This document shows, piece after piece, positions 2,410 through 34,133 of a stretch of DNA of 34,467 nucleotides. The DNA is from a virus: positions 1-34,467 of the IMG/VR virus record IMGVR_UViG_3300047550_005315, one strand, 5' to 3'. Under the pieces are notes generated by a model. It did not search any database, was not told where the DNA came from, and was given only the letters and a program-made list of their open reading frames with translations. The position numbers and the translations under genes are program-made. Numbering within the stretch: the first letter of the stretch is position 1; each line of letters begins with the position of its first letter.

Positions 2410-2982
2410 ATGAAAAAATATGGATTCGTTTATATTTGGTTTGACAAAAAACACAAAAAATACTATATTGGTTGTCATTGGGGTCAAGAAAGTGATGGTT
2501 ACATCTGTTCATCAAATTGGATGAGAATGGCATATAGGAGAAGACCTTATGATTTTAAGAGACGAATATTAAAAAGAACTGAGTTAAGAGATGAGCTGTT
2601 TTTGATTGAAGAAAGTTTCCTAAAAAGAATTAAACCTGAAGAATTTGGTAAAAAATATTACAATCTTCAAAATCATTGGAGACATTGGTCGGAATCTAGT
2701 ACGGGAAGACTGTCTGTTAGATCAAAAATATCAGAAACTAAAAAGAAATATTGGGCTAGTTCAGAATCTGCTGTTACAAGAGAAAAATTGAGTAAAATTA
2801 ATAAAGAACGAGGGGTTAGGCCACCTTCGCGAAAAGGTAAGATTCCTTGGAATAAAGGATTGACTAAAAACACAGACGAGAGAGTTGCTGCAAATGCTGC
2901 AGCATGTAGAAAACCTAAGGCTAATACACAGAAAATGGGTAGATATAAACATAAAAAGGAATGTGATGAATTATTCGTTTGA
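2410..2982 (+). CDS. GIY-YIG homing endonuclease with NUMOD-type DNA-binding repeats
   Basis: Free-standing homing endonuclease of 190 residues. The N-terminal catalytic GIY-YIG module shows GFVYIWF and YYIGCHWG, then a conserved Arg-rich helix and a Glu (EESFLKR). The C-terminal half has short NUMOD-like DNA-contact elements: GRLSVRSKISETKKKYW and RKGKIPWNKGLTK, the second being the typical NUMOD3 'PWNKG' motif. I chose ATG 2410 over the in-frame ATG 2347 because AAGGAG stands just before it and 2347 lies inside queE. It has its own late promoter box at 2370, unlike the surrounding operon genes. It is inserted between queE and a phosphoribosyltransferase and overlaps the latter by 17 nt. Confidence 0.88.
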   Translation: MKKYGFVYIWFDKKHKKYYIGCHWGQESDGYICSSNWMRMAYRRRPYDFKRRILKRTELRDELFLIEESFLKRIKPEEFGKKYYNLQNHWRHWSESSTGRLSVRSKISETKKKYWASSESAVTREKLSKINKERGVRPPSRKGKIPWNKGLTKNTDERVAANAAACRKPKANTQKMGRYKHKKECDELFV

Positions 2983-3409
2983 AATGATGCAGGATGATAT
3001 TAGAAATATTTTGAATCAAATGGAGGCGGTAAATTACCGACCTTCAATCATTTTGGGAATTACAAGAGGCGGATTGATTCCAGCAACATTGATTGCTCAA
3101 AGATTAAATGTGAACTTCGTAGATGCAATTCATCCGAAAAATCACGATGTTAATCTTTTGAGAAAGGTTTATGAAAAATACATAGCTGATACTGTGGCGA
3201 ACTGCAAATCAAGTACTTTAATTGTTGATGATATTTTCGACACAGGAAAAACTTACGTATATTTTAAGAAAATATTTCCTGATGCAAAATTTGCCTCATT
3301 GTTGTATAATAAGGGGTGTGAAATTAAAGAAAAGCCAGAATATATTGGAACTACAATTGACAAAACTATAGATCCATCTTGGGTAGAGTTTTGGTGGGAA
3401 CATGAGTAA
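2966..3409 (+). CDS. Type I phosphoribosyltransferase
   Basis: Protein of 147 residues with the PRPP-binding signature VDDIFDTGKT at residues 87-96 (two acidic residues then D-T-G-K-T) and an upstream ILGITRGGLIPA loop typical of purine or xanthine/guanine phosphoribosyltransferases. The family transfers phosphoribose from PRPP to a nucleobase. The substrate cannot be read from sequence. Its place between queE and folE raises the idea of a purine or deazapurine base, but that is inference. ATG 2966 is preferred over 2885 because AAGGA at 2956-2960 precedes it and the upstream extension is a frame-shifted reading of the endonuclease tail. The C-terminus DPSWVEFWWE is typical of XPRT-like proteins. 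Confidence 0.85.
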   Translation: MNYSFEMMQDDIRNILNQMEAVNYRPSIILGITRGGLIPATLIAQRLNVNFVDAIHPKNHDVNLLRKVYEKYIADTVANCKSSTLIVDDIFDTGKTYVYFKKIFPDAKFASLLYNKGCEIKEKPEYIGTTIDKTIDPSWVEFWWEHE

Positions 3410-3914
3410 TATTCAAGTAATGATTGACTTGGAAACAATGTCAACAAGATCTAATGCTGCTATTTGTTCTATAGGTGCAGTAAAGTTTTCTGTAGAAGAT
3501 GGTATTCTAGATAAGTTTTATAAAACTATTGATGCTAGAAGTGCTAAAGAATATGGATTGCATTTCTCCAAAGATACTGTAGAATGGTGGAGACAACAAA
3601 ACACCGAGGCATTGAGAGCTCTAACTATTGATTGTGTTGAATTGGATGAAGCTCTAGATAAATTCACTGAGTGGTATGGTGAAAAGGGGATTCCTACTTG
3701 GGGCAATGGAGCAGGATTTGATAATGTTATTATGGAGAATGCTTATTTCGCAATTGGAAAAGTAAGACCTTGGAAATACTGGCACGATAGATGTTATAGA
3801 ACTCTAAAAAATCTAATTGTTGTAGAGGAAGATTCAAGGGAAGGTGTTTATCATAATGCTTTACATGATGCTATACACCAAACTAATCATTTATTAAAAA
3901 TTTTGAGGTCATAA
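3402..3914 (+). CDS. DEDDh 3'-5' exonuclease, Rv2179c/DexA-like
   Basis: Nuclease of 170 residues with the Exo I motif DLETMSTRSNAAICSIGAV (D9, E11), an Exo II aspartate in GNGAGFDN, and Exo III HNALHDA with the terminal His and Asp of the DEDDh class. Families with the 'DLETM' opening include Rv2179c-like exoribonucleases and the phage DexA-type exonuclease A. T4 DexA degrades single-stranded DNA from the 3' end and is larger (about 227 residues). The gene overlaps the preceding stop by 8 nt and is followed by folE through a TAATG junction. Substrate (RNA or DNA) is uncertain. Confidence 0.85.
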   Translation: MSNIQVMIDLETMSTRSNAAICSIGAVKFSVEDGILDKFYKTIDARSAKEYGLHFSKDTVEWWRQQNTEALRALTIDCVELDEALDKFTEWYGEKGIPTWGNGAGFDNVIMENAYFAIGKVRPWKYWHDRCYRTLKNLIVVEEDSREGVYHNALHDAIHQTNHLLKILRS

Positions 3915-4579
3915 TGGAAATTTCAGATGTAATTCGTGAGCGTATAATTGCTGATAATGCTCCATATCTTTGCAACGATAATATTTCACAATATATTAAA
4001 GAGGGTGAGAAGAATCTTCTAATTTTAGAATTAGAGAAGAAGATGGAGTCTGTACTTAAATCCCTTATTATTAATACTGAGGAAGATCATAATACAAGGG
4101 AAACAGCTCATAGAGTTGCTAAAATGTGGGTTAATGAAATATTTGCTGGTAGATATCATCCCGCACCGGATGTTACTAGTTTTCCTAATGTAGGATATAA
4201 TAATCTTTATACATGTGGACCAATTTCAATTAGATCTACTTGTGCTCACCATTTTCAAAATATTGTAGGTAAGTGTTGGGTTGGAGTATTGCCTCAAGAT
4301 GAAGTAATTGGCTTATCAAAATTCAACAGAATAGTTCATCACATTTCAGAGCGTCCTCAAATTCAAGAAGAAATGACTACTCAAATTGCAGATGCACTGG
4401 TTAAATTCTCCGGTACTCCAAATATTGCTGTAGTTGTTAAGGCAGAACACCACTGCATGACTCACCGCGGTGTGAGAGAACATGAATCTGATATGACTAC
4501 CGCTGTACTTAGAGGTAGATTCCTCGATGATAAGAGTTTGAAAACTGAATTTTATCAAGTATTGAGTTTAAAACAATAA
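3914..4579 (+). CDS. folE: GTP cyclohydrolase I
   Basis: Converts GTP to 7,8-dihydroneopterin triphosphate, the entry step of both folate and 7-deazaguanine synthesis. At 221 residues it matches E. coli FolE (222). The zinc ligands fall at C110, H113 (TCAHHF) and C181 (EHHCMTHRGV), the same numbers as in E. coli. The substrate-contact segment GLSKFNRIVHHISERPQIQE is intact. The start is a TAATG overlap with the exonuclease stop, with GAGG just upstream. Together with queE and the QueD-like gene it supplies the front half of the preQ0 pathway; the phage copy would boost flux during infection. Confidence 0.95.
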   Translation: MEISDVIRERIIADNAPYLCNDNISQYIKEGEKNLLILELEKKMESVLKSLIINTEEDHNTRETAHRVAKMWVNEIFAGRYHPAPDVTSFPNVGYNNLYTCGPISIRSTCAHHFQNIVGKCWVGVLPQDEVIGLSKFNRIVHHISERPQIQEEMTTQIADALVKFSGTPNIAVVVKAEHHCMTHRGVREHESDMTTAVLRGRFLDDKSLKTEFYQVLSLKQ

Positions 4580-4580
4580 T

Positions 4581-5840
4581 ATGAATAATGTAAAATTTGA
4601 ATATGTAGCTTCGGGATTTAGTTATTTTAGAATAAACAAACAAAATGCATTAACTCCAGAGATCATAGATTATTTCAAGAATACCTTTGCCTCCATTAAT
4701 GGTAATCATAATCACTTAGTATCTCTTTTATATAATGCCTACACCGAAGCAAATCACGGTGAGATGTTTAATTCTACTATTAGACCTATTGTTAATAAAA
4801 TTCATGCAGACTCTGGTGGTCTGCAGATGATTACTCTAGGTAAAACTATCACAGAAGAATTGAAGATGGAGATCTATGCCAATCAAGCAAAGTATAGCGA
4901 TATTGCCATGGCATTTGATATGATTCCAGTTAAGGTTCTCGGAGATCGTTCTGTCAGACTAGACACAAATACTAGAAAATTTGATCCTGCAAATTTTGAG
5001 AATTGTGCAAGGCAATCGGGAAAAAATTTGAAAACTCAAATAGAGTATTTTCTAAAGAATAAATCTAAATCAAAACCATTTCTAATTACTCAAGGTAATT
5101 GTTACGATACTTACATGAAATGGGTTGAATATGTTGTAGAGGAACTTCCATCTGAATATATTGATCATATTGGTGGCATAGCTATGGGAGCTGCTGCTCT
5201 AGGTAAGGGGACTCTAGAGGATATAAAGCGAGCTTTCTATTATACACAACTTCCAATAAAACTTAAAAATAATCATATGCACTTACTAGGAGTCGGAGCA
5301 TTCCCTCGAATGATACCAACTCTGGTATTTGTGCAAAATGAACTGTACAATAATATGGTTATTAGTTATGATTCGACAACTCATACTGCATCTATAACTA
5401 GAGGTTTATACTTTTATAAAACAAAAATGTTAAATTACTCTAGAGTAATGAATCCGGATTATGATACTATTTTTGAGGATATTAATAATAATTTCCCCGG
5501 TGTTTATGAATTTGATGTGAATATGCTACATGCTTGTCTAAATAATCCACCTTCTAAAATTGCAGAAAAGTACGGATCATCTGATGCATCAGTTAAAACT
5601 GCAATTTCTTATATCTCATCTGCAATTAAGAATTTCGCTAAATGTGTGGATCATATGTCAACAAATCAAAAAGACATGATTAGATTATTATCTCCACTTT
5701 ATCAAAATGCATTTTTATCTTTATATGAAGTAAAAAACATGGATGATTTTAATCATTGGTTAAGATCTGTTGGAAATCATATTGACAGCGACGCATTAGG
5801 TGTTTATAATTCTGGTTTGTCTCATTTATTTGGTGAATAA
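4581..5840 (+). CDS. dpdA: DpdA-like DNA guanine transglycosylase (TGT superfamily)
   Basis: TIM-barrel base-exchange enzyme of 419 residues related to tRNA-guanine transglycosylase. Landmarks in order: D77-SGGLQ (the DSGGFQ-type substrate motif, general base Asp), YSDIAMAFD around residues 105-113, GGIAMG (the base-recognition GGLAVG-type motif), HLLGVGAFPRM, then ISYDSTTHTASI with D264 as the likely nucleophile. The zinc site of tRNA enzymes (CxCxxC...H) is absent, and a helical C-terminal tail of about 110 residues follows. That pattern fits phage DpdA proteins, which swap guanine in DNA for preQ0 or a derivative. It lies directly after folE and in the same operon as queE and the QueD-like gene. 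Known phage users of this pathway protect their DNA from host restriction. Confidence 0.85.
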   Translation: MNNVKFEYVASGFSYFRINKQNALTPEIIDYFKNTFASINGNHNHLVSLLYNAYTEANHGEMFNSTIRPIVNKIHADSGGLQMITLGKTITEELKMEIYANQAKYSDIAMAFDMIPVKVLGDRSVRLDTNTRKFDPANFENCARQSGKNLKTQIEYFLKNKSKSKPFLITQGNCYDTYMKWVEYVVEELPSEYIDHIGGIAMGAAALGKGTLEDIKRAFYYTQLPIKLKNNHMHLLGVGAFPRMIPTLVFVQNELYNNMVISYDSTTHTASITRGLYFYKTKMLNYSRVMNPDYDTIFEDINNNFPGVYEFDVNMLHACLNNPPSKIAEKYGSSDASVKTAISYISSAIKNFAKCVDHMSTNQKDMIRLLSPLYQNAFLSLYEVKNMDDFNHWLRSVGNHIDSDALGVYNSGLSHLFGE

Positions 5841-5842
5841 TT

Positions 5843-6247
5843 ATGTCTGATGTAAAAGTAGAACGATGGATTGAAGTTAAATTTACAAAAGAGGGTATTC
5901 ATAAGTATCCGGAAGCTAGCACAGACCCAGCTTTAGCAACTAATGATGAATATGATGTTAGCTTCCTCGGTGTTCCTCATAGACATATTTTTCACTTTTA
6001 TGTCTCATTAAAGGTTGAACATGATAATAGAGAGGTTGAATTTATTCAATTCAAGAGATGGTTAGAAAATTTATTTAAGGAACAAACTCTAAATATTAAT
6101 TTTAAATCTTGTGAAATGTTAGCAAATGATTTATTTAATATGATTCAAACTCATGAAAAATATTCTAATAGAGAAACTATAATAAAGGTTTATGAGGATG
6201 ATGAAAATGGAGCAATATTGAAATTTACCTCTGAAAATGACTGTTGA
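5843..6247 (+). CDS. Divergent T-fold (QueD/PTPS-like) protein of unknown role
   Basis: 134 residues with no clear family name from sequence alone. It carries an H20, H46, H48 pattern (EGIHKYPEA and VPHRHIFHF) that mimics the three zinc histidines of QueD/PTPS enzymes, followed by a strand-rich segment, a CEMLANDLF helix like the 'SENLA' helix of QueD, and a C-terminal VYEDDENGA that resembles the catalytic-Glu strand. The catalytic Cys before the HxH and the Asp-His pair of QueD are not seen. It is placed 2 nt after dpdA and before the glycosyltransferase, so it belongs to the deazaguanine module. It may bind a pterin or deazaguanine or partner the QueD-like protein. Function is inferred. 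Confidence 0.6.
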   Translation: MSDVKVERWIEVKFTKEGIHKYPEASTDPALATNDEYDVSFLGVPHRHIFHFYVSLKVEHDNREVEFIQFKRWLENLFKEQTLNINFKSCEMLANDLFNMIQTHEKYSNRETIIKVYEDDENGAILKFTSENDC

Positions 6248-6253
6248 GAATTT

Positions 6254-7306
6254 ATGAAAACAATTTATATTGTACCAATAGAACCAATTGATCAAAGATA
6301 CACAAAACAATGGTATGAAAACATACCAAAAATTCTCGAGAGTGAAATACGAAAGAGAAATTTAAATATTAAAATTGACGTAATTGATGGTACGTTAATT
6401 TCTAGTGGAACATCTAAAGGTGCATTTCTAGATTTTGGTGCAACAAATCTTTATAAAGCAACTCAAGTTGAGCGCATATCATCTTTGTTTAGTTTTGGTC
6501 AAGTAAAACCTGGTGATAAATTTCTTGTTACAGATGCTTGGAATTTCGCAATCACTACAATAAAGTATATGAGTGAACTGTTAAACATTCCTGTAGAGAT
6601 TCATTCTATTTGGCATGCTGGTAACTATGATCCATCAGACATTCTCGGTATGAAAATGAGTAAGGAGTGGGCATCTAATCAAGAGAGGGCTTGGTATTAT
6701 GCTAGTTCTCATAATTATTTTGCTACAAATTTTCATCTGAAAATGTTTCAGGAAAATTTGCAAGTGGGTGCTATTAAATCTTATAGATCGGGTCAACCAC
6801 ATACTCCAATTATAGATGCTCTTTTACCATATAGAAGTGTTAAAAAAGAAAACACTATTATGTTTCCTCACAGATATAACGAGGACAAGCAACCAAAAAT
6901 TGCCGAAGATTTGCAAGATTTGTACACAGTTAATATAACTCAAAAAATGAATCTTTCTAAAGAACAATATTATGAATGTTTGAGTAGATCAAAAGTAATT
7001 TTTAGTTGCTCTTTACATGAGAATTTAGGTATTAGTATGATGGAGGGAACACTTGCTGGTGCTATTCCAATTGTACCAGATAGATGCTCATATAAGGAAA
7101 TGTATCTTGATGTATTTAAATATCCATCTGAATGGACATCTAGTTTTGATAATTACTTAAAGTATAAAAAATATCTACTTTCTTTTATAGCAGAAACAAT
7201 GTTAAATTATGATGATTTTGCTAAAGATTTAGAAGAACAAACAAAAATTCTAATTGAGGAATATTTAACACCCACTGTCATGATTAATAATCTTCTAGGA
7301 GCGTAA
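6254..7306 (+). CDS. GT-B glycosyltransferase, GT4-like (EX7E motif)
   Basis: 350 residues. The C-terminal donor-binding half is typical of retaining GT4 enzymes: a domain opening IMFPHRYNEDKQPKI, then H255-E256-NLGISMM-E264 (the EX7E pair) and GTLAGAIPIVPD. The N-terminal half (FLVTDAWNFAI, IHSIWHAGNY, SYRSGQPHTP) is the acceptor side and is less conserved. Such enzymes move a sugar from a nucleotide donor to an acceptor with retention. It is not in the glycan island but between the T-fold gene and the QueD-like gene, with 6 and 1 nt gaps. That placement suggests an acceptor linked to the modified base or DNA; this is inference. It could also be an ordinary glycan enzyme that happened to insert here. 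Confidence 0.85.
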   Translation: MKTIYIVPIEPIDQRYTKQWYENIPKILESEIRKRNLNIKIDVIDGTLISSGTSKGAFLDFGATNLYKATQVERISSLFSFGQVKPGDKFLVTDAWNFAITTIKYMSELLNIPVEIHSIWHAGNYDPSDILGMKMSKEWASNQERAWYYASSHNYFATNFHLKMFQENLQVGAIKSYRSGQPHTPIIDALLPYRSVKKENTIMFPHRYNEDKQPKIAEDLQDLYTVNITQKMNLSKEQYYECLSRSKVIFSCSLHENLGISMMEGTLAGAIPIVPDRCSYKEMYLDVFKYPSEWTSSFDNYLKYKKYLLSFIAETMLNYDDFAKDLEEQTKILIEEYLTPTVMINNLLGA

Positions 7307-7307
7307 G

Positions 7308-7766
7308 ATGGGTAAGTTTATAAGCACAAAAACATATGGTCATGAAAGAGGATATGCTGTTGCTTATCGTCAATGGAGAGCAGATACACATTGTAATAAA
7401 ATCCATGGTTATGCCCTAGCATTTCATTTTGAATTTGAGTGTGAGACTCTAGACAATAGAAACTGGTGTGTTGATTTTGGTGGATTTAAATCACTCAAAG
7501 AAAAATTAGATGATTGGTTTGATCATACACTTTTAGTAGCAGAAGATGATCCAGAGATGGAGACATTTCAAATGCTGCACAATAAAAAACTATGTAAACT
7601 AGTTGTTGTGGAGAAAACAGGTTGTGAAGGTTTAGCTAAGTTCCTTGCAGATTATATTCAAGAATATTGGATGGAGGAAAATGGATATAATGATGGAAGG
7701 GTTAAACTTCGCATGGTGAAAGTAATGGAGACTCCATCAAATTCTGCAATGTGGGTTAATGAATGA
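7308..7766 (+). CDS. queD: QueD/PTPS-family protein with altered metal ligands
   Basis: 6-carboxytetrahydropterin synthase family, 152 residues. T-fold landmarks: C29 in THCNKIHGY, VDFGGFK (the FAD/DFG-like substrate loop), FDHTLLVAEDDP (Asp-His of the charge relay) and the C-terminal KVMETPSNSA with its substrate-binding Glu. In cellular QueD the zinc is held by AAH and HGH histidines. Here the first aligns with Y20 (AVAYRQW) and the second motif reads H33-G-Y35, so two ligands seem replaced; H12 or H28 may compensate. Proteins of this form are common in marine T4-like phages, usually annotated as 6-pyruvoyl tetrahydropterin synthase. ATG 7308 has AGGAG upstream and one base separates it from the preceding gene. 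Confidence 0.82.
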   Translation: MGKFISTKTYGHERGYAVAYRQWRADTHCNKIHGYALAFHFEFECETLDNRNWCVDFGGFKSLKEKLDDWFDHTLLVAEDDPEMETFQMLHNKKLCKLVVVEKTGCEGLAKFLADYIQEYWMEENGYNDGRVKLRMVKVMETPSNSAMWVNE

Positions 7767-8821
7767 AAATAGCTTTAATTACAGACTCTCACTTTGGAGC
7801 AAGATCAGATTCATTTGTTTACGATAAATTTTTCAAAAAATTTTACAAAAATATCTTTTTTCCAGAGTTAGAGAAAAGAAACATAGACACTGTAATTCAT
7901 CTAGGTGACGTTTTTGATAGAAGAAAATTCATAAACTATGTAACATTGAAATCTTGCAAAAAGTATTTCTTTGATGAATTAGAGAAAAGAGATATTACTG
8001 TTCATGTTTTAACAGGCAATCACGATACTACTTATAAAAATTCCAATGAAATAAATTCCCCAGATATTTTATTGATGGGTTATTCAAACATTACTACATA
8101 TTCAGATCCAGTTATTGCAAATATTGGAGGTTTGAATATATTAATGATGCCTTGGATTTGTGCTGCAAATTATGAGCAATCTTTGAAATTAATAAAAGAT
8201 GAAGGTGCTCTTGTTTGCATGGGTCACTTTGAGTTCTCTGGTTTTGAAATGTATAGAGGACAGGTAAGTGAAGGTGGAATGGATGCTAGTTTATTTCAAA
8301 ATTATAAACTTGTTTGCTCGGGTCATTATCACCACAAATCTTCTAAGAAGAATATTACTTACCTAGGTAATCCTTATCAAATCACCTGGCAAGATTATGG
8401 TGATTCAAGGGGTTTTCATATTTTAGATACTGAAACTCTAGAGTTAGAATTTATAGAGAATCCTTATACAATATTTGAGAAGATATACTATAACGATGTT
8501 GAGGTAGATTATAACAAATCAATGGTATCTGAGGATAATTATACCAACAAAAACATAAAATTGATTGTTGTTAATAAAAAAGATGCTTATTTGTTTGATA
8601 AATTTGTAGATTGGCTTTATTCAATAGGTCCTCTAGATTTGAAAATTATTGAGGATTTCTCCGAATTTGAATCTCAAGTTGAGGATGAATCTGTTAGTAT
8701 AGAGGATACAATGTCTTTATTAGGATCATATGTTGATGCTATTGAAACTGACATGAATAAAGAAAAAATCAAAACAATTTTAAAAACCCTTTATGTAGAA
8801 GCACAAACATTTGAAGAATGA
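7763..8821 (+). CDS. 47: gp47 recombination endonuclease subunit (SbcD/Mre11 family)
   Basis: Calcineurin-type metallophosphoesterase, nuclease half of the gp46/gp47 complex that resects DNA ends for phage recombination and host DNA breakdown. 352 residues, near T4 gp47 (339). All metal motifs are present: TDSHFG (D8, H10), HLGDVFDRR, TGNHDT, MGHFEFSG and CSGHYHH. It starts in an ATGA overlap with the QueD-like stop and ends in an ATGA overlap with gp46, so the two subunits are translationally coupled. Confidence 0.96.
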   Translation: MKIALITDSHFGARSDSFVYDKFFKKFYKNIFFPELEKRNIDTVIHLGDVFDRRKFINYVTLKSCKKYFFDELEKRDITVHVLTGNHDTTYKNSNEINSPDILLMGYSNITTYSDPVIANIGGLNILMMPWICAANYEQSLKLIKDEGALVCMGHFEFSGFEMYRGQVSEGGMDASLFQNYKLVCSGHYHHKSSKKNITYLGNPYQITWQDYGDSRGFHILDTETLELEFIENPYTIFEKIYYNDVEVDYNKSMVSEDNYTNKNIKLIVVNKKDAYLFDKFVDWLYSIGPLDLKIIEDFSEFESQVEDESVSIEDTMSLLGSYVDAIETDMNKEKIKTILKTLYVEAQTFEE

Positions 8822-15654: not shown

Positions 15655-16374
15655 ATGAATAATTTTGCTCAAGTTGAATTAGATTATGGATATTTTATAA
15701 TTCCAGTAAATTATACTCCCGGTCCACCTACTCCATCCCCGCTCGATGCTTCAAAGCATAAAAGAACCCACATAGAAGAAGAACTTAGTTTTCTAACCAG
15801 AATAGTTTTTTGGTTAGATGATAATTCTGTTATTATTGATGGTGGTGCAAATATTGGTTATGTCTCAATTCCTATTGCAACACAATACAAAAATAAAAAT
15901 CTAGAGATTCACGCTTTTGAACCACAAAAGATGTTATTCTATGCTCTTGGTGGTACTGTTGCACTCAATGATTTAAACAATGTAACGCTTCATAATAAAT
16001 GTCTTGGAGCAGTCTCTGGAAAAGCAAATATACCCGAAATAGATTTTAGTCAAAAATCTGACTTTGGTATGGTGGCTGTCTCTAAAGATAAAGAAGAAAA
16101 TGTTAGAGAAGTTGATGTTGTAGCAATTGATGATATGAATCTACGTAGATTAGATTTTCTTAAATTAGATATTGAGGGTTATGAATGTGAAGCACTCAGA
16201 GGTGGTATAGAGACTATTAAAAAATATCGCCCATGGATATGGATAGAATATAATCTAATTGGAATTGATAATATTAAAAAAGAGCTTGCAGATATTTCCG
16301 ACTATGACTATATAGTCATAGATTGGCAAAACATGCTGCTAGCTCCAAAAGAAAGATTAGATAAAGTAAAATAA
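15655..16374 (+). CDS. FkbM-family methyltransferase
   Basis: 239 residues. SAM-binding motif I is IIDGGANIGYVSI (D62), then HAFEPQK, the VTLHNKCLGAVSGKA segment, EVDVVAIDD and LDFLKLDIEGYECEALRGG, the hallmark order of FkbM O-methyltransferases. These cap or decorate sugars in antibiotics, LPS and viral glycans. It is the first gene of the glycan island, behind a putative promoter. The acceptor is probably a sugar hydroxyl, but is not shown. Confidence 0.9.
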   Translation: MNNFAQVELDYGYFIIPVNYTPGPPTPSPLDASKHKRTHIEEELSFLTRIVFWLDDNSVIIDGGANIGYVSIPIATQYKNKNLEIHAFEPQKMLFYALGGTVALNDLNNVTLHNKCLGAVSGKANIPEIDFSQKSDFGMVAVSKDKEENVREVDVVAIDDMNLRRLDFLKLDIEGYECEALRGGIETIKKYRPWIWIEYNLIGIDNIKKELADISDYDYIVIDWQNMLLAPKERLDKVK

Positions 16375-16388
16375 TTATTGGGAATTGA

Positions 16389-17171
16389 ATGAAAAATATA
16401 CTTATTCATACACACACTGGTTTGGGTGATTATTTCATAACAAACGGTATAATGCATTCTTATACACTTAACTATGATAAAGTGTATCTAATTTATATTA
16501 AGATGTTTCGTGAGACTGTACAGGAATTATATAAAGGTTTTGAATCAATTACGCCTATTGAATTTCCAGATGTTGATGTAACAAAAACTGCAATGCGAGA
16601 AGTGAGACAAACAGCTCAAAATTTAAATGCTGAAATGATTTCTCTTGCAGATCCTTATCTTCATTATCCGGAGAGATTAATTTTTAATAAAGATCAAAAT
16701 TTAGTTAAATTAAATGTGGCTGTTAATTTTGATAGACAATTTTATGAGCTAGCTGGATTGCCTTTTGCATGTAGATATACGAATTGCCGTATTCCTGCAA
16801 AGACAGAACGCAGTGAGGAGATTTATCAGACTCTGTCTGGGGGAGAAGATTATATTCTTATACATGGTGGCAGTAGTCAACAAGATGATTATGGATTGGC
16901 TATTGATCAACTTACCTCTTATAAAGATTTAAAGCGTGTTTATATTAAACCAGGAGTAACAAATAATGTTCTAGATTTTGTTACTTTGATAGAGAGAGCA
17001 AAAGAAATTCATGCTGTAGGATCTTTTTTCCAATGTCTAGTTGATTCTATGGTTAAACGAACTAAAGCAGATTTAATTTTTCATGATGTAATGATGAAAC
17101 ACGAGACTCAAGTGAGTAACAAGTGGAATGATTATAGATGGAAAGTTGTAAATTATGGAGTAAAATATTAA
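16389..17171 (+). CDS. Putative GT-B glycosyltransferase (GT9-like), paralogue A
   Basis: 260 residues, not a named family. It opens with [19 protein letters not shown], close to the GxGD start of heptosyltransferase-like enzymes, and has a second-domain segment [20 protein letters not shown] followed by [18 protein letters not shown], where GT9-type enzymes bind the nucleotide sugar. A clear paralogue lies at 28001, at the other end of the island. It ends in an overlap with the GMD ATG. Substrate unknown. Confidence 0.6.
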
Positions 17172-18172
17172 TGAAAAAAGCATTGATTACTGGTATTACC
17201 GGTCAAGATGGATCTTATTTAGCAGAGCTTTTATTAGAAAAAGATTATGAGGTTCATGGTATAATTAGAAGAAGCTCATCTATAAATACATCCAGAATAG
17301 ATCATATATTTGATAACAAAAATTTAAAATTACATTATGGTGATCTAACAGATTCATTATCATTAAGTGCGACAATTCAAAGAATTGAACCGGATGAAAT
17401 ATATAATTTAGCAGCTCAAAGTCATGTAAAAGTTTCATTTGAAACACCTGAGTATACAGCTCAGGTAGATGCATTGGGAACTCTTAGAATTTTAGAGGCA
17501 GTTAGATTACTAGGTCTAACACATAAAACAAAAATATACCAAGCATCAACCTCTGAACTATATGGATTAGTTCAGGAGATTCCTCAAAAAGAAACTACTC
17601 CCTTCTATCCTCGTTCACCATATGGTGCAGCAAAGATTTATGGTTTTTGGATTACTAAAAACTATCGTGAGGCATATGATATGTTTGCATGCACTGGTAT
17701 TCTTTTTAATCATGAATCTCCTAGACGCGGACACAATTTCGTGACAAAGAAAATTGTTGATGGTTTGAGAAATATTTCTCAGGGCAAGCAAGATATTCTT
17801 TATCTAGGTAATTTAAATGCAAAGAGAGACTGGGGTCATGCAAAAGATTACGTTAGAGCAATGTGGATGATGTTACAGAGAGATACTCCGGATGATTTTG
17901 TTATTGCTACAGGTGAACAATATTCAGTAAGAGAGTTTGTTGAGGAATGTGCTCCTCATTTCAAAATGAATATTTACTGGGAAGGTGAAGGTTTAAATGA
18001 AGTTGGTATTGATAGATTTACATGTAAGCCTGTCATTAAAGTAGATCCCAAATATTTTCGTCCTACCGAAGTAGAAACTTTGCTAGGTGATGCGACAAAA
18101 GCGCAAAATATTCTAGGATGGAAACCAGAATATACTTTTAAAATGTTAGTGGATGAAATGTGTAATGAATAA
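17171..18172 (+). CDS. gmd: GDP-mannose 4,6-dehydratase
   Basis: Converts GDP-mannose to GDP-4-keto-6-deoxymannose, the first step to GDP-fucose. 333 residues, slightly short of the usual 340-375. The extended SDR fold shows [13 protein letters not shown] (NADP site), [13 protein letters not shown], the catalytic STSELYG and YGAAK (YxxxK), and [13 protein letters not shown], a GMD-specific stretch. ATG 17171 is chosen because GGAG stands 10 nt before it; the longer frame from 17138 lies in the upstream gene. It is coupled to the fucose synthase that follows. Confidence 0.95.
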
Positions 18173-19100
18173 AGACTCTAAAATTTTTATTGCTGGGCAT
18201 AGAGGATTGGTGGGTTCAGCTATAGTTAGACGTTTAGAACTTTTGGGATATAAAAATATTATAACTGCTGGAAGAGAATGTCTTGATCTAAGATCACAGG
18301 CTAGTGTTGAATATTTTTTTGAAAATCATAAACCAGATTATGTTTTTGATGCTGCAGCAAAGGTTGGTGGAATTTATGCAAATGATACTTATTCTGCAGA
18401 CTTCATTTATGATAATATTATGATTCAAACTAATTTAATCCATAATTCATGGAAGTATGGAGTAAAAAAATTCCTCTTCCTCGGATCAGTTTGTATATAT
18501 CCTAAATTTGCATCTATCCCCGTAAAGGAAGAAAGTTTACTAACCGGTATTCTTGAACCAACAAATGAGGCATATGCTATAGCAAAAATATCTGGTGCCA
18601 AAATGTGCCAGTTTTATAGCAAACAATATGGATTCAAATCATTAACAATTATGCCATCAAATCTATATGGTATAAATGATAATTTTCATCCAGATAATGG
18701 ACATGTTATTCCAGCTATGTTTACAAAGTTTAGATTAGCTAAACAAGAATGTACTGATGTGACTTTTTGGGGTGATGGTACCGCATATAGAGAATTTATG
18801 TATTGCGATGATATGGCTGATGCTTGCATTTTTCTCATGATACAACAACAATATGAAAATGGAGAAATAATAAATGCTGGTTCTGGTTATAATATTTCTA
18901 TTAAAGAATTGTCTGAGAAAATAGCTCGAATAGTTGATTTCAAAGGTAAGATTTTATGGGATACATCTAGACCAAATGGAACTCCTATTAGACCACTTGA
19001 TTTCACAAAAATAGAAAAATTGGGATGGAGTCCAAAATATGATTTGGATTATGGTTTAGCACTAACATATGATTGGTTAACAAAAAGGAATAACCCATGA
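18165..19100 (+). CDS. fcl: GDP-L-fucose synthase
   Basis: Epimerase/reductase that finishes GDP-L-fucose. 311 residues (E. coli WcaG 321). Features: [17 protein letters not shown] dinucleotide motif, [11 protein letters not shown], the catalytic GSVCIYP serine, [11 protein letters not shown] (YxxxK) and MPSNLYG. ATG 18165 overlaps the GMD stop. Together with gmd it gives a complete two-step route from GDP-mannose, which the host must supply. The GT10 gene at 20677 is the likely user. Confidence 0.95.
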
Positions 19101-20329
19101 AAGAATTATTTTCATTAGGTGATTTGTATGTATCTGACTTCATTAAGGATGAGAATACTTTTAGAGGTGGCAAACATGAAATGAAACTCATGTTTGATGA
19201 AAAGACTGCTGAGGTTCGTTTAGAGAAATCTGCCCCACCAGATGCAATGTATGGTAAATACTGGTATAGATCTGGTATTAATGATACTATGAAAAATGAA
19301 CTTGCAAGCATTGTTTCATCAATTCAATCTGTTAAAAAGTTAAAACCCAACTCTGTATGGTTAGATATTGCTTGCAATGATGGTACATTACTTTCATTTG
19401 TACCAAATACAATGTATAGGGTAGGTATTGATCCCGTTGAGGATTCTTATAAAAAAGAATCTGAAAAACATGCAAATCTAATCATCCAAGATTATTTTTC
19501 TCTTAATGCAATTAAAAATACAGAGTTTGAGGGAAAGAAGGCTGATGTAATTACTTGCATAGCAATGTTCTATGATCTAGAGAATAGAGATTCTTTTCTA
19601 CAAGATGTTAGAAAAATTTTGCATCAAGACGGACTTTTTGTTTTACAATTAAGTTATACTCCATTGATGATTGAACAGATGGCATTTGATAATATTTGTC
19701 ATGAGCACATTTATTATTACACTTTAACTACTATGAGAAATCTATTAGGTAAAAATGGATTTAAAATAGTTGATTGCCAATTGAATGATGTTAATGGTGG
19801 TTCATTTAGATTATATGTAATGCATGATATGGGAAATGTAAATACATTCGGTACTCAACCATACAGAGATGTTTGTAACTTTAGAAAATTCTCTTTAATG
19901 GATTATGAGAGAAGAATGCGTTATAATACAGAGAATGTATGGCAGACTTTTTATTTGAATTTACTTAAATTGAGAGCTAAAACATACAATTTTATTAAAG
20001 AAGAAAAAGAAAAAGGTAAAAAGATTTGGGGTTATGGTGCTTCAACAAAGGGTAATACCTTATTGCAATATTTCGGTTTGAATCATTTGCTCATAGATGG
20101 AATAGCAGAGAGAAGCCATTATAAATTTGGTTTAAAAACTGTGGGAACAAATATTCCAATATACTCCGAAGAAGATATGCGCGCTGCAAAGCCAGATTAC
20201 TTGTTAATTTTGCCATGGCATTTCATTAATGAGTTCAAAGAAAGAGAAATAGAATTTCTTAAAGGTGGAGGAAAGATGATTGTTCCTTGCCCACGTTTCA
20301 ATATAATAACAATAGATGATGTAAATTAA
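19097..20329 (+). CDS. Sugar C-methyltransferase (TylC3/NovU-like)
   Basis: 410 residues. SAM motif WLDIACNDGTLLSF near residues 91-104, then the conserved FDNICHEHIYYYTLTT segment with the His pair used in sugar C-methylation, NDVNGGSFRLYV, and the C-terminal second domain with IWGYGASTKGNTLLQYFGL. The family adds a methyl to C3 or C5 of an NDP-4-keto-6-deoxy sugar. The usual N-terminal zinc subdomain with four cysteines is missing; the protein starts at the 'LG...' stretch just after it. It follows fcl in an ATGA overlap, with AAGGA upstream. GDP-4-keto-6-deoxymannose from gmd is a possible substrate. Confidence 0.88.
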   Translation: MKELFSLGDLYVSDFIKDENTFRGGKHEMKLMFDEKTAEVRLEKSAPPDAMYGKYWYRSGINDTMKNELASIVSSIQSVKKLKPNSVWLDIACNDGTLLSFVPNTMYRVGIDPVEDSYKKESEKHANLIIQDYFSLNAIKNTEFEGKKADVITCIAMFYDLENRDSFLQDVRKILHQDGLFVLQLSYTPLMIEQMAFDNICHEHIYYYTLTTMRNLLGKNGFKIVDCQLNDVNGGSFRLYVMHDMGNVNTFGTQPYRDVCNFRKFSLMDYERRMRYNTENVWQTFYLNLLKLRAKTYNFIKEEKEKGKKIWGYGASTKGNTLLQYFGLNHLLIDGIAERSHYKFGLKTVGTNIPIYSEEDMRAAKPDYLLILPWHFINEFKEREIEFLKGGGKMIVPCPRFNIITIDDVN

Positions 20330-20339
20330 GGAGAACATT

Positions 20340-20693
20340 TTGGGTGATTATCTAGATAAAATGATAAGAGATGCAGTACAAAGAATTCTCTCTGAAAAGA
20401 AGATGCCAGATATTCAGTATATTGCTACTGATAGTATATCAGAGATAATTGAAAAACTTATTATCATTAATATTAGAATTTGGATGTTAGAGGATGCTAT
20501 TCAAGAGGCAAAAACAGATGCTGAAATAGCAGATCTAAAGAGAAAGATTGATATTAGTTCTAAAATTAAAAGACCAAAATTCATTGAAGCAATTAATTTG
20601 ATGATTGATGATTGTATTAGAAATAAAAACAAAAGTTTAGTTGAAGGTTCAGTAAAATTATATAGAGGTGTTGATAATGAAACAGAAGCTTAA
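20340..20693 (+). CDS. Small helical protein, DUF4254-like, TTG start
   Basis: 117 residues, mostly alpha-helical and charged. The segment ISEIIEKLIIINIRIWMLEDAI and LKRKIDISSKIK resembles DUF4254-type proteins found inside polysaccharide clusters, which I offer with low confidence. The start is TTG at 20340, supported by AAGGAGA at 20328-20334; the first in-frame ATG at 20361 has no such site. It lies between the C-methyltransferase and the fucosyltransferase, overlapping the latter. Role unknown. Confidence 0.6.
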   Translation: MGDYLDKMIRDAVQRILSEKKMPDIQYIATDSISEIIEKLIIINIRIWMLEDAIQEAKTDAEIADLKRKIDISSKIKRPKFIEAINLMIDDCIRNKNKSLVEGSVKLYRGVDNETEA

Positions 20694-21573
20694 GCTAGGT
20701 TTTACTGATACAAATGAGCATCTAGCACAATTTTTCTATCACACTCTTTCTCTACGATATGAGATAGAGATTGATAACGAGAAGCCAGAATTTTTAATCT
20801 TCGGTGATGATAATTTTGGAGCTGACAATTTAAATTTCAGTAAGAGAGATTGTATTAAGATTTTCTATACCGGGGAAAATAGACGCCCGGAAAATTTTGA
20901 TTGTCACTATGCTATTTCTTTTGATCATAACTTCAATAAGTGGCATTACAGATTACCACTCTACATCATTTATATGTGGGCTCTAGAGAATATCCATAAA
21001 ACAGATTATAAGTATAATTATATTCTTAGTCCAGCAATTAAAGAGAAAACAGACTTTTGTTCTTTTGTGGTTAGTAATGGTAATTGCACAGAAAGAAATA
21101 TGTTTTTTCAGAAACTCAATGCAATAAAAAGAGTTGATAGCGCAGGTAGATTTCTTAAGAACACCAATATTGAACTAGATGGTGAGCAAGCTAAAATAGA
21201 TTTTCTTGCAAGGAGAAAGTTTAATATATGTTTTGAATCTGGTACATTTCCTGGTTATGTCACAGAGAAAATTTTACATGCGTTTTATGCTGGAACAGTT
21301 CCGATTTATTGGGGAAGTCCTACAGTAACATTAGACTTCAATTCTGGGGCATTTATCAATGCTCATATGTTCAAATCACAAGATGAACTTGCTGACTTTG
21401 TTATGCATGTTGATAGTAATGATGATTTGTATAATCATATATTGACAAGACCCAAGTTTGCGTTTAATATACCACCATCCTACTACTTCCTGGATAATTT
21501 TTTAAATTGGTTTGATGCAATTGTTTATAGAAAGATTGAGACACGAGATGCTAATACATTCATTCATTTTTAA
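20677..21573 (+). CDS. GT10 alpha-1,3-fucosyltransferase family
   Basis: 298 residues. The GT10 donor-binding block runs from F186-E-S-G through PGYVTEKILHAFYAGTVPIYWG to about residue 213, and it binds GDP-fucose in this family. An upstream IFYTGENRRP and FDHNF segment is also typical. ATG 20677 is chosen because AGAGGTG stands before it. The phage encodes both steps to GDP-L-fucose three genes upstream, so donor synthesis and transfer form a matched set. The acceptor is unknown. Confidence 0.92.
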   Translation: MKQKLKLGFTDTNEHLAQFFYHTLSLRYEIEIDNEKPEFLIFGDDNFGADNLNFSKRDCIKIFYTGENRRPENFDCHYAISFDHNFNKWHYRLPLYIIYMWALENIHKTDYKYNYILSPAIKEKTDFCSFVVSNGNCTERNMFFQKLNAIKRVDSAGRFLKNTNIELDGEQAKIDFLARRKFNICFESGTFPGYVTEKILHAFYAGTVPIYWGSPTVTLDFNSGAFINAHMFKSQDELADFVMHVDSNDDLYNHILTRPKFAFNIPPSYYFLDNFLNWFDAIVYRKIETRDANTFIHF

Positions 21574-22258
21574 TTGGCGTGGGCAGTACGAAAAAACAAA
21601 AGAAAAAGAAAAGATTTTAAGCAGTATTCCTGATGTGAAAGTCACAGTTATTAATAGTGATGAAGAACATATGGATGAAGATTGGATTAATATTGGAGAG
21701 GAATCATTCTTCACCGATCAATTCATGATGGCGTTAAAGTTGTTTAGCGGAGATATTTTTTGGCATGTGCAAGGAGACGCTTCTTATGATAAGTGGTCTG
21801 AACTTGTGACAGATGCTAAGAAATATTGGGAAAAGTATGAATGGGGTATCTACGCGCCAAATGTAGATTATACATGGTATACTGCAAATAGAACCGATAT
21901 TTCGGGACTTCTAGTATCAGATACTAATCTTAAGATAGTTGCTTGTACAGATTGTACTTGTTGGTTTATTCATAAAGATGTTATTCAAGATTTTAAGGAT
22001 CGTAACATTGATATGACACCATATACTATGGGTTGGGGTTGGGATATTGTACTTCCTTCTCTAGCATTTCTAAAGCAAAAGCCAGTATTTAGAGACTATA
22101 ATCACGTTATTCAACATCCAGAGGGAACAAATTATAATAAGGATAAGGCGGAGAGAGAAATGCTAGCTTTATTTGAGAGTTTACCTTTAGATCTGAAGAA
22201 ATTGTTTTCTCACATAAAGAGCGACAGAGAATCTATTGCAAAGTATTTCAATGAATAA
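21548..22258 (+). CDS. Putative glycosyltransferase (GT-A-like)
   Basis: 236 residues, no firm family. The layout is GT-A-like: an N-terminal IHSFIFNWRGQYEKT, then IFWHVQGDASYDKW with an Asp at the position of a donor-metal motif, IYAPNVDYTWYTANRTD, and a late WGWDIVLPSLAF resembling the catalytic acidic segment of GT2-like enzymes. ATG 21548 is taken because it keeps a short overlap with the upstream gene. The neighbours are all sugar genes. Donor and acceptor unknown. Confidence 0.65.
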   Translation: MLIHSFIFNWRGQYEKTKEKEKILSSIPDVKVTVINSDEEHMDEDWINIGEESFFTDQFMMALKLFSGDIFWHVQGDASYDKWSELVTDAKKYWEKYEWGIYAPNVDYTWYTANRTDISGLLVSDTNLKIVACTDCTCWFIHKDVIQDFKDRNIDMTPYTMGWGWDIVLPSLAFLKQKPVFRDYNHVIQHPEGTNYNKDKAEREMLALFESLPLDLKKLFSHIKSDRESIAKYFNE

Positions 22259-22901
22259 TATAACTCTTCTCTCAGCAGGGGATCTTAACTACAAACCACT
22301 TGCTGCAATTACCTGGTTTCAAAACAAGGTTAATTATTGCAATAAACATAACTATAGTGGATGTTATGGGGAATATGAGTTCAGAGGAATTCCTCATGGG
22401 TTTGAAAAAATAATGCTAATAAAGCATTTGTTCTCTACCAAAAATATTTCATGGTTATGGTGGACAGGTTGTGATTCAATGATTACAAATTTCAATGTGA
22501 AATTGGAAGATATAATTGATGAAAATTATCACTTTATTATCGGGGTTGATTTAAATGGTATGAACGCTGATAGTTTTCTAATTAGAAATAGTAAAGAGGG
22601 CAATGAGTATCTTGATATGATTTTATCTAGAATGAATTCATATCTCAATCCCATGGGAATGTATGAGCAACAAATCATGTGGGAAACTTATGAAGAATAT
22701 AAAGGTATAATCAAACAAGTGCCCCAGAGAACTTTTAATTCTTATGATTATAGTTATTTGCCCTGGCCTGCTCCTCAATTAGATAAATTGGGTAATGATG
22801 GAAATTGGGTTAAAGGTGATTTTCTAATTCAATGGCCTGCTATGCAATTACATGATAGAATAGCGCGAGCACAAAACATGTTAACAGAGGTTATTGTATG
22901 A
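22251..22901 (+). CDS. GT34-like (GMA12/MNN10) glycosyltransferase
   Basis: 216 residues. WLWWTGCDSMITN corresponds to the DxD-containing block of GMA12/MNN10-type galactosyl- or mannosyltransferases, but the first Asp reads as Gly/Cys, so the metal motif is degenerate. ADSFLIRNSKEGNEYLDMIL matches the family's 'G-x-F-L-I-R-N-S' stretch, and EQQIMWE the later acidic segment. ATG 22251 overlaps the previous stop. These enzymes are known from yeast and plants and also from large viruses. Activity is uncertain because of the altered motif. Confidence 0.7.
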   Translation: MNNITLLSAGDLNYKPLAAITWFQNKVNYCNKHNYSGCYGEYEFRGIPHGFEKIMLIKHLFSTKNISWLWWTGCDSMITNFNVKLEDIIDENYHFIIGVDLNGMNADSFLIRNSKEGNEYLDMILSRMNSYLNPMGMYEQQIMWETYEEYKGIIKQVPQRTFNSYDYSYLPWPAPQLDKLGNDGNWVKGDFLIQWPAMQLHDRIARAQNMLTEVIV

Positions 22902-23821
22902 GAATAGAATTTCAAGAACTAAATCAGCTTATAGCAACAAAGCTACAATTAAACGAATCATTTTCATTAGTAAGAATTGATAATACTGCTGGTTATGTTG
23001 TAGAGTGTATGCTGAATAGAACAGTTCCATCGGAGCAACATTATCACGGTGGATCTTTAGTTGAGTCGGGTATTTATCCCACAGATTTGAATTATTCCTT
23101 TAATGTAGTAATGCCAAAAGTAATTGACTCTATTAATAATAGTGATATACTTGGATTTGTAGATTGTGCACAGACACTGCAAAATAGTCCCACAATAAAT
23201 TCCCTTTATGGGCAAAAACCATTATTCTTTAGTCATAGTTTCCTTATAGTAGATCCAGGAGCTTTACTAGGATATGATAATACTTGGGGTATTCCAGTAC
23301 ATACACCATGGACACATTTTCTAAAAAATAAAAAAGTATTAGTAGTATCTACCCATTATGAAAGCATTATGAGACAGTGGGAAAAAATAGACAAGGTATG
23401 GGGAAAGAATAGAGATATAATTGCTCCTTTTGATTTGGTTGGTTGTGTAAGAGCCCCATACCATCCACTTTTAGATGATAGACAATATCCCAATTGCAAT
23501 TCTTGGGAAGATAATGTAAAATACATGATTAATGAAATTGACAAATATGATTACGATGTACTTTTGAGTGGTTCTACTACATCCTCCCCCATCTTTGTAA
23601 ACCATGCAAAGAAGATGGGGAAGGTAGGTATTCAAACAGGTGGAACTATTCAATTGTTTTTTGGCATCTATGGCTATAGATGGACACATGTAGATGGATA
23701 TAAAAATTGGCATAATATGTACAATGAGCATTGGATCTATCCTCTAACAGTAGATGAACCTAAAAATAAAAATGGTTATTCATACCTTGAAACTACATTT
23801 GCTTACTGGAGCAGAACTTGA
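22898..23821 (+). CDS. Glycan-island protein, possible GT-D-type glycosyltransferase
   Basis: 307 residues, not recognised with certainty. FSLVRIDNTAGYVVECML near residues 22-39 and LLSGSTTSSPIFVNHAKKMGKVGIQTGG near residues 225-252 echo the opening 'RIGDGE' and the closing 'G-x-s-a...DiG' parts of GT-D-type enzymes such as those of the SP_1767 family. The middle holds a hydrophobic Rossmann-like strand (KVLVVSTHYESIM). It starts in an ATGA overlap, with GAGG upstream. The gene ends inside the next gene's TTG start. Call is tentative. Confidence 0.5.
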   Translation: MRIEFQELNQLIATKLQLNESFSLVRIDNTAGYVVECMLNRTVPSEQHYHGGSLVESGIYPTDLNYSFNVVMPKVIDSINNSDILGFVDCAQTLQNSPTINSLYGQKPLFFSHSFLIVDPGALLGYDNTWGIPVHTPWTHFLKNKKVLVVSTHYESIMRQWEKIDKVWGKNRDIIAPFDLVGCVRAPYHPLLDDRQYPNCNSWEDNVKYMINEIDKYDYDVLLSGSTTSSPIFVNHAKKMGKVGIQTGGTIQLFFGIYGYRWTHVDGYKNWHNMYNEHWIYPLTVDEPKNKNGYSYLETTFAYWSRT

Positions 23822-25134
23822 AAGAGATATTGAATTTAGTTGAAAATTATATTAAAGAGAAGCAAAATACAACTTGGACTCCTGGAGTAGATCATGTGAA
23901 CTACTCCGGTCCTTATTTTGGTCCGGAGGAATATGTTGCTGCCGTTGAAACTTTACTAGGTGGTTGGCTAGTAATGGGTAATAAAAGTTTACGCTTTGAA
24001 CAAAAGTTTTGTAAACAATTCGGTAAAAAGCATGGTATTTTAACAAACTCAGGATCTAGTTCCAATCTATTAATGATGGCAGCGTTATCTAGTAAACGGG
24101 GATATAACTTACCTAAAGGTACAAAAATTCTCACACCAGCTGCCGGCTTTCCTACTACATTAAATCCAATTCTTCAGTATGGATATGAACCTGTTTTTGT
24201 TGATATAGAATTAAATACTTTAAACTTAGATTTAGATAAAACAGAAGAAATTTTAAGTAAAAATCCAGACATTAAGGTAATTACCTTTGCACATGTCCTT
24301 GGTAATCCGCCTGCAATGAATAGAGTTATGGAATTGGTTAAGAAACACAATCTAATTCTTTTAGAAGATTGCTGTGATGCTCTAGGATCTTCTTATGAAG
24401 GTAAACCTCTAGGAAGTTTTGGTGAAATGGCATCTTGTAGTTTTTACCCAGCACATCATATGACTATGGGTGAAGGTGGCTATGTAGCATGTAATACTTA
24501 TGAGCAAGAAGTTATTCTACGTAGTTTCCGTGAATGGGGTAGAGGCTGCTATTGTAATGGTCCGGAGGCAAATAAGTTAAAATGTGGAACATGTAAGGAA
24601 AGATTTAAAGAATGGATTCCAAGCTTACCAGGTGAAATATTTGACCATAAGTATGTCTATGACGAGATTGGATATAATCTGAAACCTATTGAGGTGCAAA
24701 GTGCAATTGGTTTGGTTCAATTAGAAAAATTACCAGATATTCATTACTTAAGAAAGAGAAATTACTATTTACTAAAGGAAATTTTTGAGAAGTATGAGGA
24801 ATATTTTATCATTCCAAGGTCTCTAGAAGAAGCCGATGTAAGTTGGTTTGCTTTTCCTTTGACTTTAAAGGACACCGCTCCATTTTATAGAAAGAATTTA
24901 GTTGATTTCCTAGAAGATAATCTAATACAAACTCGTCCATATTTTGCAGGAAATATTTTACTACAACCAGCATATTCACATTTGATGGATATCAATAAAG
25001 TTAAAAGTGAATTTAAAAATGCAACATACTCCATGACTAATACATTCTTCCTAGGTACTAGTCCTGTCATTACTAGAACAAAGATAAATTACATTAGTCA
25101 TATTGTAGATCAGTTCATGAGAAAATATGAATAA
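23818..25134 (+). CDS. rfbH: E1-type sugar 3-dehydrase, PMP/[2Fe-2S] (RfbH/DdhC-like)
   Basis: 438 residues, DegT/DnrJ/EryC1 fold. The PLP lysine is replaced by His: SFYPAHHMTMGEGG, H214 at the lysine position, as in CDP-6-deoxy-4-hexulose 3-dehydrase E1. Cysteines C186, C244, C246 and C256 follow a C-X57-C-X1-C-X9-C pattern, nearly the C-X57-C-X1-C-X7-C [2Fe-2S] motif of E1. The family removes the C3 hydroxyl of an NDP-4-keto-6-deoxy sugar, giving a 3,6-dideoxy sugar. The start is TTG at 23818 with GGAG 8 nt upstream; it overlaps the previous stop. E1 needs an electron donor reductase (E3), and none is seen here. The nucleotide of the substrate (CDP, GDP or dTDP) cannot be told. Confidence 0.88.
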   Translation: MKEILNLVENYIKEKQNTTWTPGVDHVNYSGPYFGPEEYVAAVETLLGGWLVMGNKSLRFEQKFCKQFGKKHGILTNSGSSSNLLMMAALSSKRGYNLPKGTKILTPAAGFPTTLNPILQYGYEPVFVDIELNTLNLDLDKTEEILSKNPDIKVITFAHVLGNPPAMNRVMELVKKHNLILLEDCCDALGSSYEGKPLGSFGEMASCSFYPAHHMTMGEGGYVACNTYEQEVILRSFREWGRGCYCNGPEANKLKCGTCKERFKEWIPSLPGEIFDHKYVYDEIGYNLKPIEVQSAIGLVQLEKLPDIHYLRKRNYYLLKEIFEKYEEYFIIPRSLEEADVSWFAFPLTLKDTAPFYRKNLVDFLEDNLIQTRPYFAGNILLQPAYSHLMDINKVKSEFKNATYSMTNTFFLGTSPVITRTKINYISHIVDQFMRKYE

Positions 25135-25747: not shown

Positions 25748-25748
25748 T

Positions 25749-33974: not shown

Positions 33975-34050
33975 GGGCCTATAGCTTAATGGTTAAAGCA
34001 GCGAACTCATAATTCGTTGAGTCTAGGTTCAAATCCTAGTAGGCCCACCA
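33975..34050 (+). tRNA. tRNA with CAU anticodon (Ile2 or Met)
   Basis: 76 nt, all arms fold. Acceptor GGGCCTA/TAGGCCC, D arm GCTT/AAGC, anticodon stem GCGAA/TTCGT with loop CTCATAA, T arm CTAGG/CCTAG with TTCAAAT, and an encoded ACCA end. The anticodon is CAU. The TTGAGTC region and TTCAAATCC are nearer to bacterial tRNA-Ile2 (where C34 becomes lysidine and reads AUA) than to elongator Met, and AUA is frequent in this AT-rich genome. The distinction is not certain. Confidence 0.93.
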
Positions 34051-34057
34051 AATGATA

Positions 34058-34133
34058 GCAGAGTGAGCAAGTCTGGTGATTGCGCGTGCCTGAAGAGCAT
34101 GAGAATAAGGTTCGATTCCTTAACTCTGCACCA
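34058..34133 (+). tRNA. tRNA-Phe (GAA)
   Basis: 76 nt, 7 nt after the first tRNA. Acceptor GCAGAGT/ACTCTGC, D arm GCAA/TTGC, anticodon stem CGTGC/GCATG with loop CTGAAGA (anticodon GAA), T arm TAAGG/CCTTA with TTCGATT, and encoded ACCA. Position 37 is G rather than the A usual in bacterial tRNA-Phe, and position 32 is C. Confidence 0.92.

Follow-up and report, generated by a model that had tools for sequence, protein, structure and literature searches.

The window analysed here, that is, the whole stretch of 34,467 nucleotides of the virus record IMGVR_UViG_3300047550_005315, carries on its plus strand a set of genes predicted to act in the 7-deazaguanine modification of DNA. A GT4-type GT-B glycosyltransferase of 350 amino acids (6254-7306; hereafter GT) is directly flanked by Tf2 (5843-6247), a QueD-fold (T-fold) paralogue of 134 amino acids assigned to phrog_17812, and by the 6-carboxytetrahydropterin synthase QueD (7308-7766; PF01242, E 1.9e-18). 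Further upstream lie a DpdA2-family DNA-guanine transglycosylase (4581-5840; phrog_10773) and, identified by profile matches, the GTP cyclohydrolase I FolE (3914-4579) and the radical SAM enzyme QueE, a 7-carboxy-7-deazaguanine synthase (1499-2359). The initial annotation had placed the glycosyltransferase between a T-fold gene and a QueD-like gene, and Tf2 does end just upstream of it and QueD begin just downstream. A xanthine/guanine-type phosphoribosyltransferase (2885-3409, plus strand) recurs in related operons, its type being seen in 89 related loci, and may recycle the guanine released by DpdA. Between this gene and QueE, positions 2347-2982 encode what appears by eye to be a GIY-YIG-type homing endonuclease, and two tRNA genes, Met (CAT) and Phe (GAA), are found at 33975-34133.

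The transglycosylase aligns to DpdA2 of Vibrio phage nt-1 with 36% identity over 64% and has the three aspartates that a TGT-fold enzyme should possess, all of them invariant: D77 in DSGGLQ, D113 in FDxIP and D264 in SYDS, the last of which we read as the nucleophile. The dpdA gene of the operon can accordingly be placed in the DpdA2 family of nt-1. QueC was not found among the operon genes of the window that were tested, the window being an incomplete genome whose hosts may supply preQ0.

The GT reading frame is genuine, with relatives at 57-71% identity in 43 IMG/VR loci. In named phages, relatives range from 21.8 to 43.6% identity; they occur in Sinorhizobium phage Phosso, the PA5oct/Cassandra group, Acidovorax phage ACP17 and Xanthomonas phage X1, and, as weak matches (21.8%), in the PhiXhv phages and Erwinia phage Ep032. 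An intact EX7E pair had been noted at the outset, and its residues E256 (nt 7019-7021) and E264 (nt 7043-7045) are respectively invariant and at least 90% conserved in an alignment of 28 sequences. In the same alignment R207 and K212, which occupy the place where GT4 enzymes usually contact the donor phosphate, are invariant, as are D94 and H121, and an N-terminal motif, EPxDxRYT, is peculiar to the family. GT misses the Pfam Glycos_transf_1 cut-off (20.7 bits for a gathering threshold of 26.4), searches of PHROG and NCBIfam returned nothing beyond a generic glycosyltransferase match, and its profile retrieved a single chain from the PDB, a GT4-like glucosyltransferase (E=0.008). The AlphaFold2 model (pLDDT 89, pTM 0.86) matched GT4 structures in Foldseek, among them glycogen synthase, BshA and MshA, with E down to 1e-10. 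Judged from this model and from its conserved residues, the enzyme is a retaining GT4 glycosyltransferase, with the GT-B fold, the EX7E pair and the Arg/Lys donor site all present.

A sister subfamily (MRKLFYMGLEPY..RYT) takes the place of GT near Tf2 at 7355-8521 of locus L207 and in 19 more loci, and mostly has Asp for the first Glu of EX7E. That substitution would suit a protein that is a non-catalytic remnant or a DNA-binding helper, but in the main family EX7E and the Arg and Lys are conserved across phages of many hosts, and nucleotidyltransferase genes adjoin GT in many loci, so that we consider a loss of catalysis improbable to the point of being nearly negligible. GT is mildly acidic (pI 6.0; family median 5.7) and has no excess of basic residues that would favour contact with DNA, which counts against an acceptor within DNA. 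Another GT4 family, distinct from that of GT, accompanies the module in 12 loci (for instance L207, 4364-5707, and L235, 12281-13477 on the minus strand), distributed among phage BUCT-ZZ01, several viral contigs and Roseobacter elements.

Genes for the 7-deazaguanine exchange lie beside GT in about 100 other viruses and a few bacteria. Locus searches were run from three independent entry points, GT, DpdA2 and Tf2. The loci retrieved with GT contain either the DpdA2 type of the window or DpdA-b, a second TGT-fold family, and never both; the two families match each other at profile level (probability 88%, E 3e-6) and have the DSGG and S-[YF]-D motifs in common. Where GT relatives have enough flanking sequence, the genome encodes a DpdA-type transglycosylase in all but two cases. 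Only four phage or viral loci retrieved with GT lack one: in two of these (L009 and L033) the sequence ends close to GT, phage Phosso (L002) has DpdA-b elsewhere in its genome, and the PhiXhv locus (L006) has no DpdA of either type. The GT loci of cellular-genome contigs show the same association. Among the 80 nearest relatives in each scan, GT and Tf2 accompany DpdA2 in 35/36 loci (3 kb on both sides), and GT is present in 48/49 Tf2 loci with adequate flanks; these counts therefore hold for the close relatives of the present operon and do not extend to DpdA2 phages at large. GT lies within 3 kb of Tf2 in 180/198 loci, and Tf2 is directly upstream of GT in 125 of the 198, some contigs being counted twice in both figures. 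On the GT tree the two DpdA types, although very different, are intermixed, with at least five switches forced by supported branches, which indicates that GT moves together with the pathway instead of being tied to a single lineage. The co-occurrence with dpdA proposed as a check in the initial annotation is thus borne out, and the link between GT and the operon, first drawn from position only, now also rests on conserved co-occurrence with DpdA and Tf2. The same annotation would have taken the absence of GT from most relatives carrying the cluster as evidence against the link. Many phages with DpdA2 do lack GT (nt-1/KVP40 type, Stenotrophomonas, pf16), but the ones examined have QueC and are without Tf2. 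Taken together, the data strongly support a functional role for GT within the operon for 7-deazaguanine modification of DNA.

Several related loci hold further genes. A family of 170 amino acids is encoded between DpdA and Tf2 in 66 loci (for instance L023, 7596-8108) and has no Pfam, PHROG or NCBIfam match. At the PhiXhv locus (Xanthomonas phage PhiXhv-15, 450-9707 of L006), the distant GT relative has as its neighbour a gene whose annotation is "GlmS" but whose product resembles a glutamine-amidotransferase-QueC fusion (QueC 169.9 bits), together with a PIG-L deacetylase gene and apparently several GNAT/FemX-type genes; this is perhaps another elaborate 7-deazaguanine hypermodification. In Stenotrophomonas phage Moby (L212, 4517-6998) FolE is separated from a QueC-DpdA2-QueE group by a gene bearing the annotation inositol-3-phosphate synthase, possibly for an inositol-bearing modification.

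Phage GT4 enzymes often modify host glycans, and the window itself contains a glycan island of about 15 kb (15655-30099) with genes for a GDP-mannose dehydratase, epimerases, a fucosyltransferase, other glycosyltransferases, DegT, a methyltransferase and a split E1/transketolase pair, which would yield GDP-mannose-derived sugars. GT could accordingly serve in glycan or lipopolysaccharide remodelling and sit in the deazaguanine operon by chance. However, GT lies outside this island, as already stated in the initial annotation, and the island is not conserved with the GT loci: 9/13 of the island proteins tested are unmatched in any related locus at E 1e-10, so that a general dependence of GT on the island is not indicated. 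By contrast, Tf2 and DpdA remain the companions of GT in the scans described above, and the association recurs in bacterial loci that have no glycan genes nearby; we hold a role in glycan remodelling to be extremely unlikely.

These bacterial copies are found in genome contigs of Magnetospirillum, Azospirillum, Pelagibacterium, Shimia and Sulfitobacter, where GT adjoins DpdA-b; in the Alphaproteobacteria the pair is free of surrounding glycan genes. In Magnetospirillum (L231, 6330-12059) the gene order is GT, Tf2, DpdA-b and QueD, with a CoiA-like nuclease gene upstream. In Shimia (L235, 7498-14110) a VUT-family transporter is followed by GT, DpdA-b, a protein of 585 amino acids, the second GT4 and an integrase, and the order VUT transporter, GT and DpdA is also seen in L230. 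Neither FolE nor full-length QueC was found in the Shimia assembly and one Sulfitobacter assembly, both possibly incomplete, and such bacteria may salvage the base through the transporter. The GT-DpdA pair of bacteria could be a self-marking or defence cassette. Several other GT matches, in Nitrosarchaeum, Neomarinimicrobiota and further MAGs, seem to stem from phage contigs that ended up in a MAG through binning. A contig of an archaeal MAG (L242) encodes GT, Tf2, QueD, QueE and FolE, without a DpdA detectable by the profiles used.

Genes for sugar activation are frequent around GT. An RfaE/HldE-type nucleotidyltransferase fused to a mannose-6-phosphate-isomerase cupin is its immediate neighbour in about 40 loci, upstream of it in 29 and downstream in 11. 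A further nucleotidyltransferase, RfaE/TagD-like, adjoins GT in 22 loci that may overlap with the former set, and 8 loci have a DegT aminotransferase gene no more than 3 kb away. All three are activated-sugar synthesis genes, and the presence of the fused enzyme beside GT points to a sugar donor made specifically for it. In the window, GT has no gene of these kinds at its side.

The neighbouring Tf2 bears on the acceptor of GT. The model of this protein (pLDDT 93) has E. coli QueD as its best PDB match in Foldseek, the His metal triad H20/H46/H48 is invariant and E118 is also kept. QueD uses a Cys nucleophile and an Asp-His pair for catalysis. In Tf2 the position four before HxH, that of the Cys, is an invariant Leu (L42), and the Tf2 alignment contains no DH motif, so that Tf2 is probably a QueD-like enzyme catalysing a different reaction. 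An assignment to QueF, suggested by a resemblance of motifs, is unsupported: QueD is the top fold and no QueF scored above the Pfam cut-off in the genomes tested.

Tf2 and QueC are mutually exclusive. QueC was found at 0/216 Tf2 loci (some contigs being counted more than once), whereas the sole DpdA2 locus without GT and Tf2 (L072) carries it. Likewise, full QueC is absent from the Tf2-bearing genomes of Phosso, Cassandra, ACP17, BUCT-ZZ01, RHph_I1_18, phiST, Ahp1, Bakedbeans and MA9V-3, and the Tf2-bearing X1 and D479 give weak and partial QueC matches only. Conversely, QueC is present in the DpdA genomes without Tf2, namely nt-1, D484, 1.081.O, 2.275.O, pf16 and, with a weaker Pfam score, Moby. 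Fisher's test on 10 Tf2 and 6 non-Tf2 genomes, which are not independent of one another, gives p = 1e-4, or p = 6e-4 when D479 is scored as QueC-positive. In the named phages GT occurs only together with Tf2, the exception being the distant GT of the PhiXhv type, while Tf2 occurs without GT in six (RHph_I1_18, Ahp1, phiST, Bakedbeans, D479 and MA9V-3).

Based on this exclusion, the route probably branches at 7-carboxy-7-deazaguanine and not at preQ0, which a host QueC could nonetheless supply. We propose from these sequence comparisons that Tf2 acts on 7-carboxy-7-deazaguanine instead of QueC, and the acceptor of GT in operons without QueC is then probably not dPreQ0 but rather 7-carboxy-7-deazaguanine or the product of Tf2. 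Cui et al. (2023) reportedly named a 7-carboxy-7-deazaguanine decarboxylase DpdL, to which Tf2 may correspond; if so, GT would act on an unsubstituted 7-deazaguanine, and a ring carbon or nitrogen would have to receive the sugar.

In the resulting scheme, FolE, QueD and QueE would produce 7-carboxy-7-deazaguanine, Tf2 would convert it, the DpdA transglycosylase would exchange the modified base for guanine in DNA, and the GT4 enzyme, a retaining transferase using a nucleotide-sugar donor, would glycosylate the 7-deazaguanine, somewhat more probably once the base is in DNA than while it is free. The modification would presumably protect the phage DNA from restriction. A glycosylated 7-deazaguanine in DNA is, on the available models and sequences, the most economical reading of what GT makes, and GT is probably a sugar transferase dedicated to a branch of this phage DNA modification that does without QueC. 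The main weakness of the scheme is chemical, the expected base being without an evident hydroxyl: 7-carboxy-7-deazaguanine has none, so that either Tf2 creates one or the sugar joins the carboxyl, a nitrogen or a carbon.

In another reading, GT would glycosylate a free pterin or a free 7-deazaguanine precursor, the glycoside remaining a small molecule or being inserted later by DpdA. FolE, QueD and the second T-fold protein would make pterin intermediates, GT is not basic, and cyanobacterial pterin glucosyltransferases, which glycosylate biopterin, are GT-B enzymes. Yet the near-constant partner of GT is a DpdA transglycosylase, which would be useless for the synthesis of a pterin glycoside, and some bacterial loci consist of GT, DpdA and the VUT transporter, in the Shimia and Sulfitobacter assemblies with no FolE found. 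We regard a free acceptor of this kind as unlikely and retain the glycosylated base in DNA as the preferred product.

More broadly, a QueC-less route could be widespread, with Tf2 making a new base from 7-carboxy-7-deazaguanine, DpdA inserting it and GT4 capping it with a sugar from a dedicated nucleotidyltransferase, so that the DNA would hold a sugar-bearing, hypermodified purine. T4-like and jumbo phages would possess this route, and bacterial chromosomes would have adopted it, once beside an integrase and perhaps for self-marking or defence. We put forward this wider picture tentatively, as a possibility somewhat short of an even chance. Were a sugar indeed added to a transglycosylase-inserted 7-deazaguanine, two separate strategies of DNA camouflage would be joined and a new bulky purine obtained. 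Existing isolates are concerned, the PA5oct/Paride jumbo phages of Pseudomonas among them, and the exclusion between Tf2 and QueC gives a testable role to the uncharacterised QueD-like family phrog_17812. In the passages located, papers on Paride and Callisto report no measurement of DNA modification, and a jumbo-phage survey describes a deazaguanine system in PA5oct, its passages on that system mentioning no glycosyltransferase.

Modified pyrimidines are known to bear sugars in DNA. No description of a glycosylated 7-deazaguanine in DNA was found in the literature searched, with Cui et al. (2023) and a 2024 review lying outside it, and we provisionally consider the modification undescribed. 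Among the closest solved folds are BshA and MshA of bacillithiol and mycothiol synthesis, retaining GT4 enzymes that use UDP-GlcNAc as donor and a small acceptor; their identity to GT is about 10%, their acceptors are malate or inositol phosphate, and the EPxDxRYT motif occurs only in the GT family described here. The glucosylation of hydroxymethylcytosine in phage T4, to which GT had first been compared, is alike in that a phage GT-B enzyme puts a sugar, here putatively, onto a modified DNA base. The GT-B part of that analogy holds, whereas homology to the T4 enzymes does not: the fold is that of GT4 (BshA, glycogen synthase), and the T4 alpha- and beta-glucosyltransferases (GT63/GT72), which belong to other families by fold search, are absent from the 50 best structure matches and from the PDB sequence matches. 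Base and acceptor also differ, the base being swapped by a transglycosylase here and made as a nucleotide in T4.

Closer in its acceptor is the glycosylation of queuosine in animal tRNA by QTMAN and QTGAL, where sugar transfer to a transglycosylase-inserted 7-deazaguanine nucleoside is proven (PMC12518689). The acceptor of QTMAN and QTGAL is the cyclopentenediol of queuosine, neither has a sequence match to GT, and queuosine-specific genes were found in no phage (PMC6884629). GT could by this precedent act on another nucleic acid, such as a 7-deazaguanine tRNA. However, GT is without a QTMAN-family match in Pfam, the transglycosylase of the operon is of the DpdA2 family, and the DpdA2 carrier nt-1 contains 7-deazaguanines in its DNA (PMC6884629). 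A tRNA acceptor is thus very unlikely, and we return to DNA as the probable target of GT. Here the nearest systems are those of the DpdA1 and DpdA2 phages (9g, CAjan and nt-1; PMC6884629), in which no modification measured by Hutinet et al. (2019) carries a sugar. They have FolE, QueD, QueE and a DpdA2-family enzyme in one operon in common with the window, and in both cases guanine is replaced in DNA, as predicted here from the genes; the operon described here differs in having, instead of QueC, Tf2 and a GT4 glycosyltransferase.
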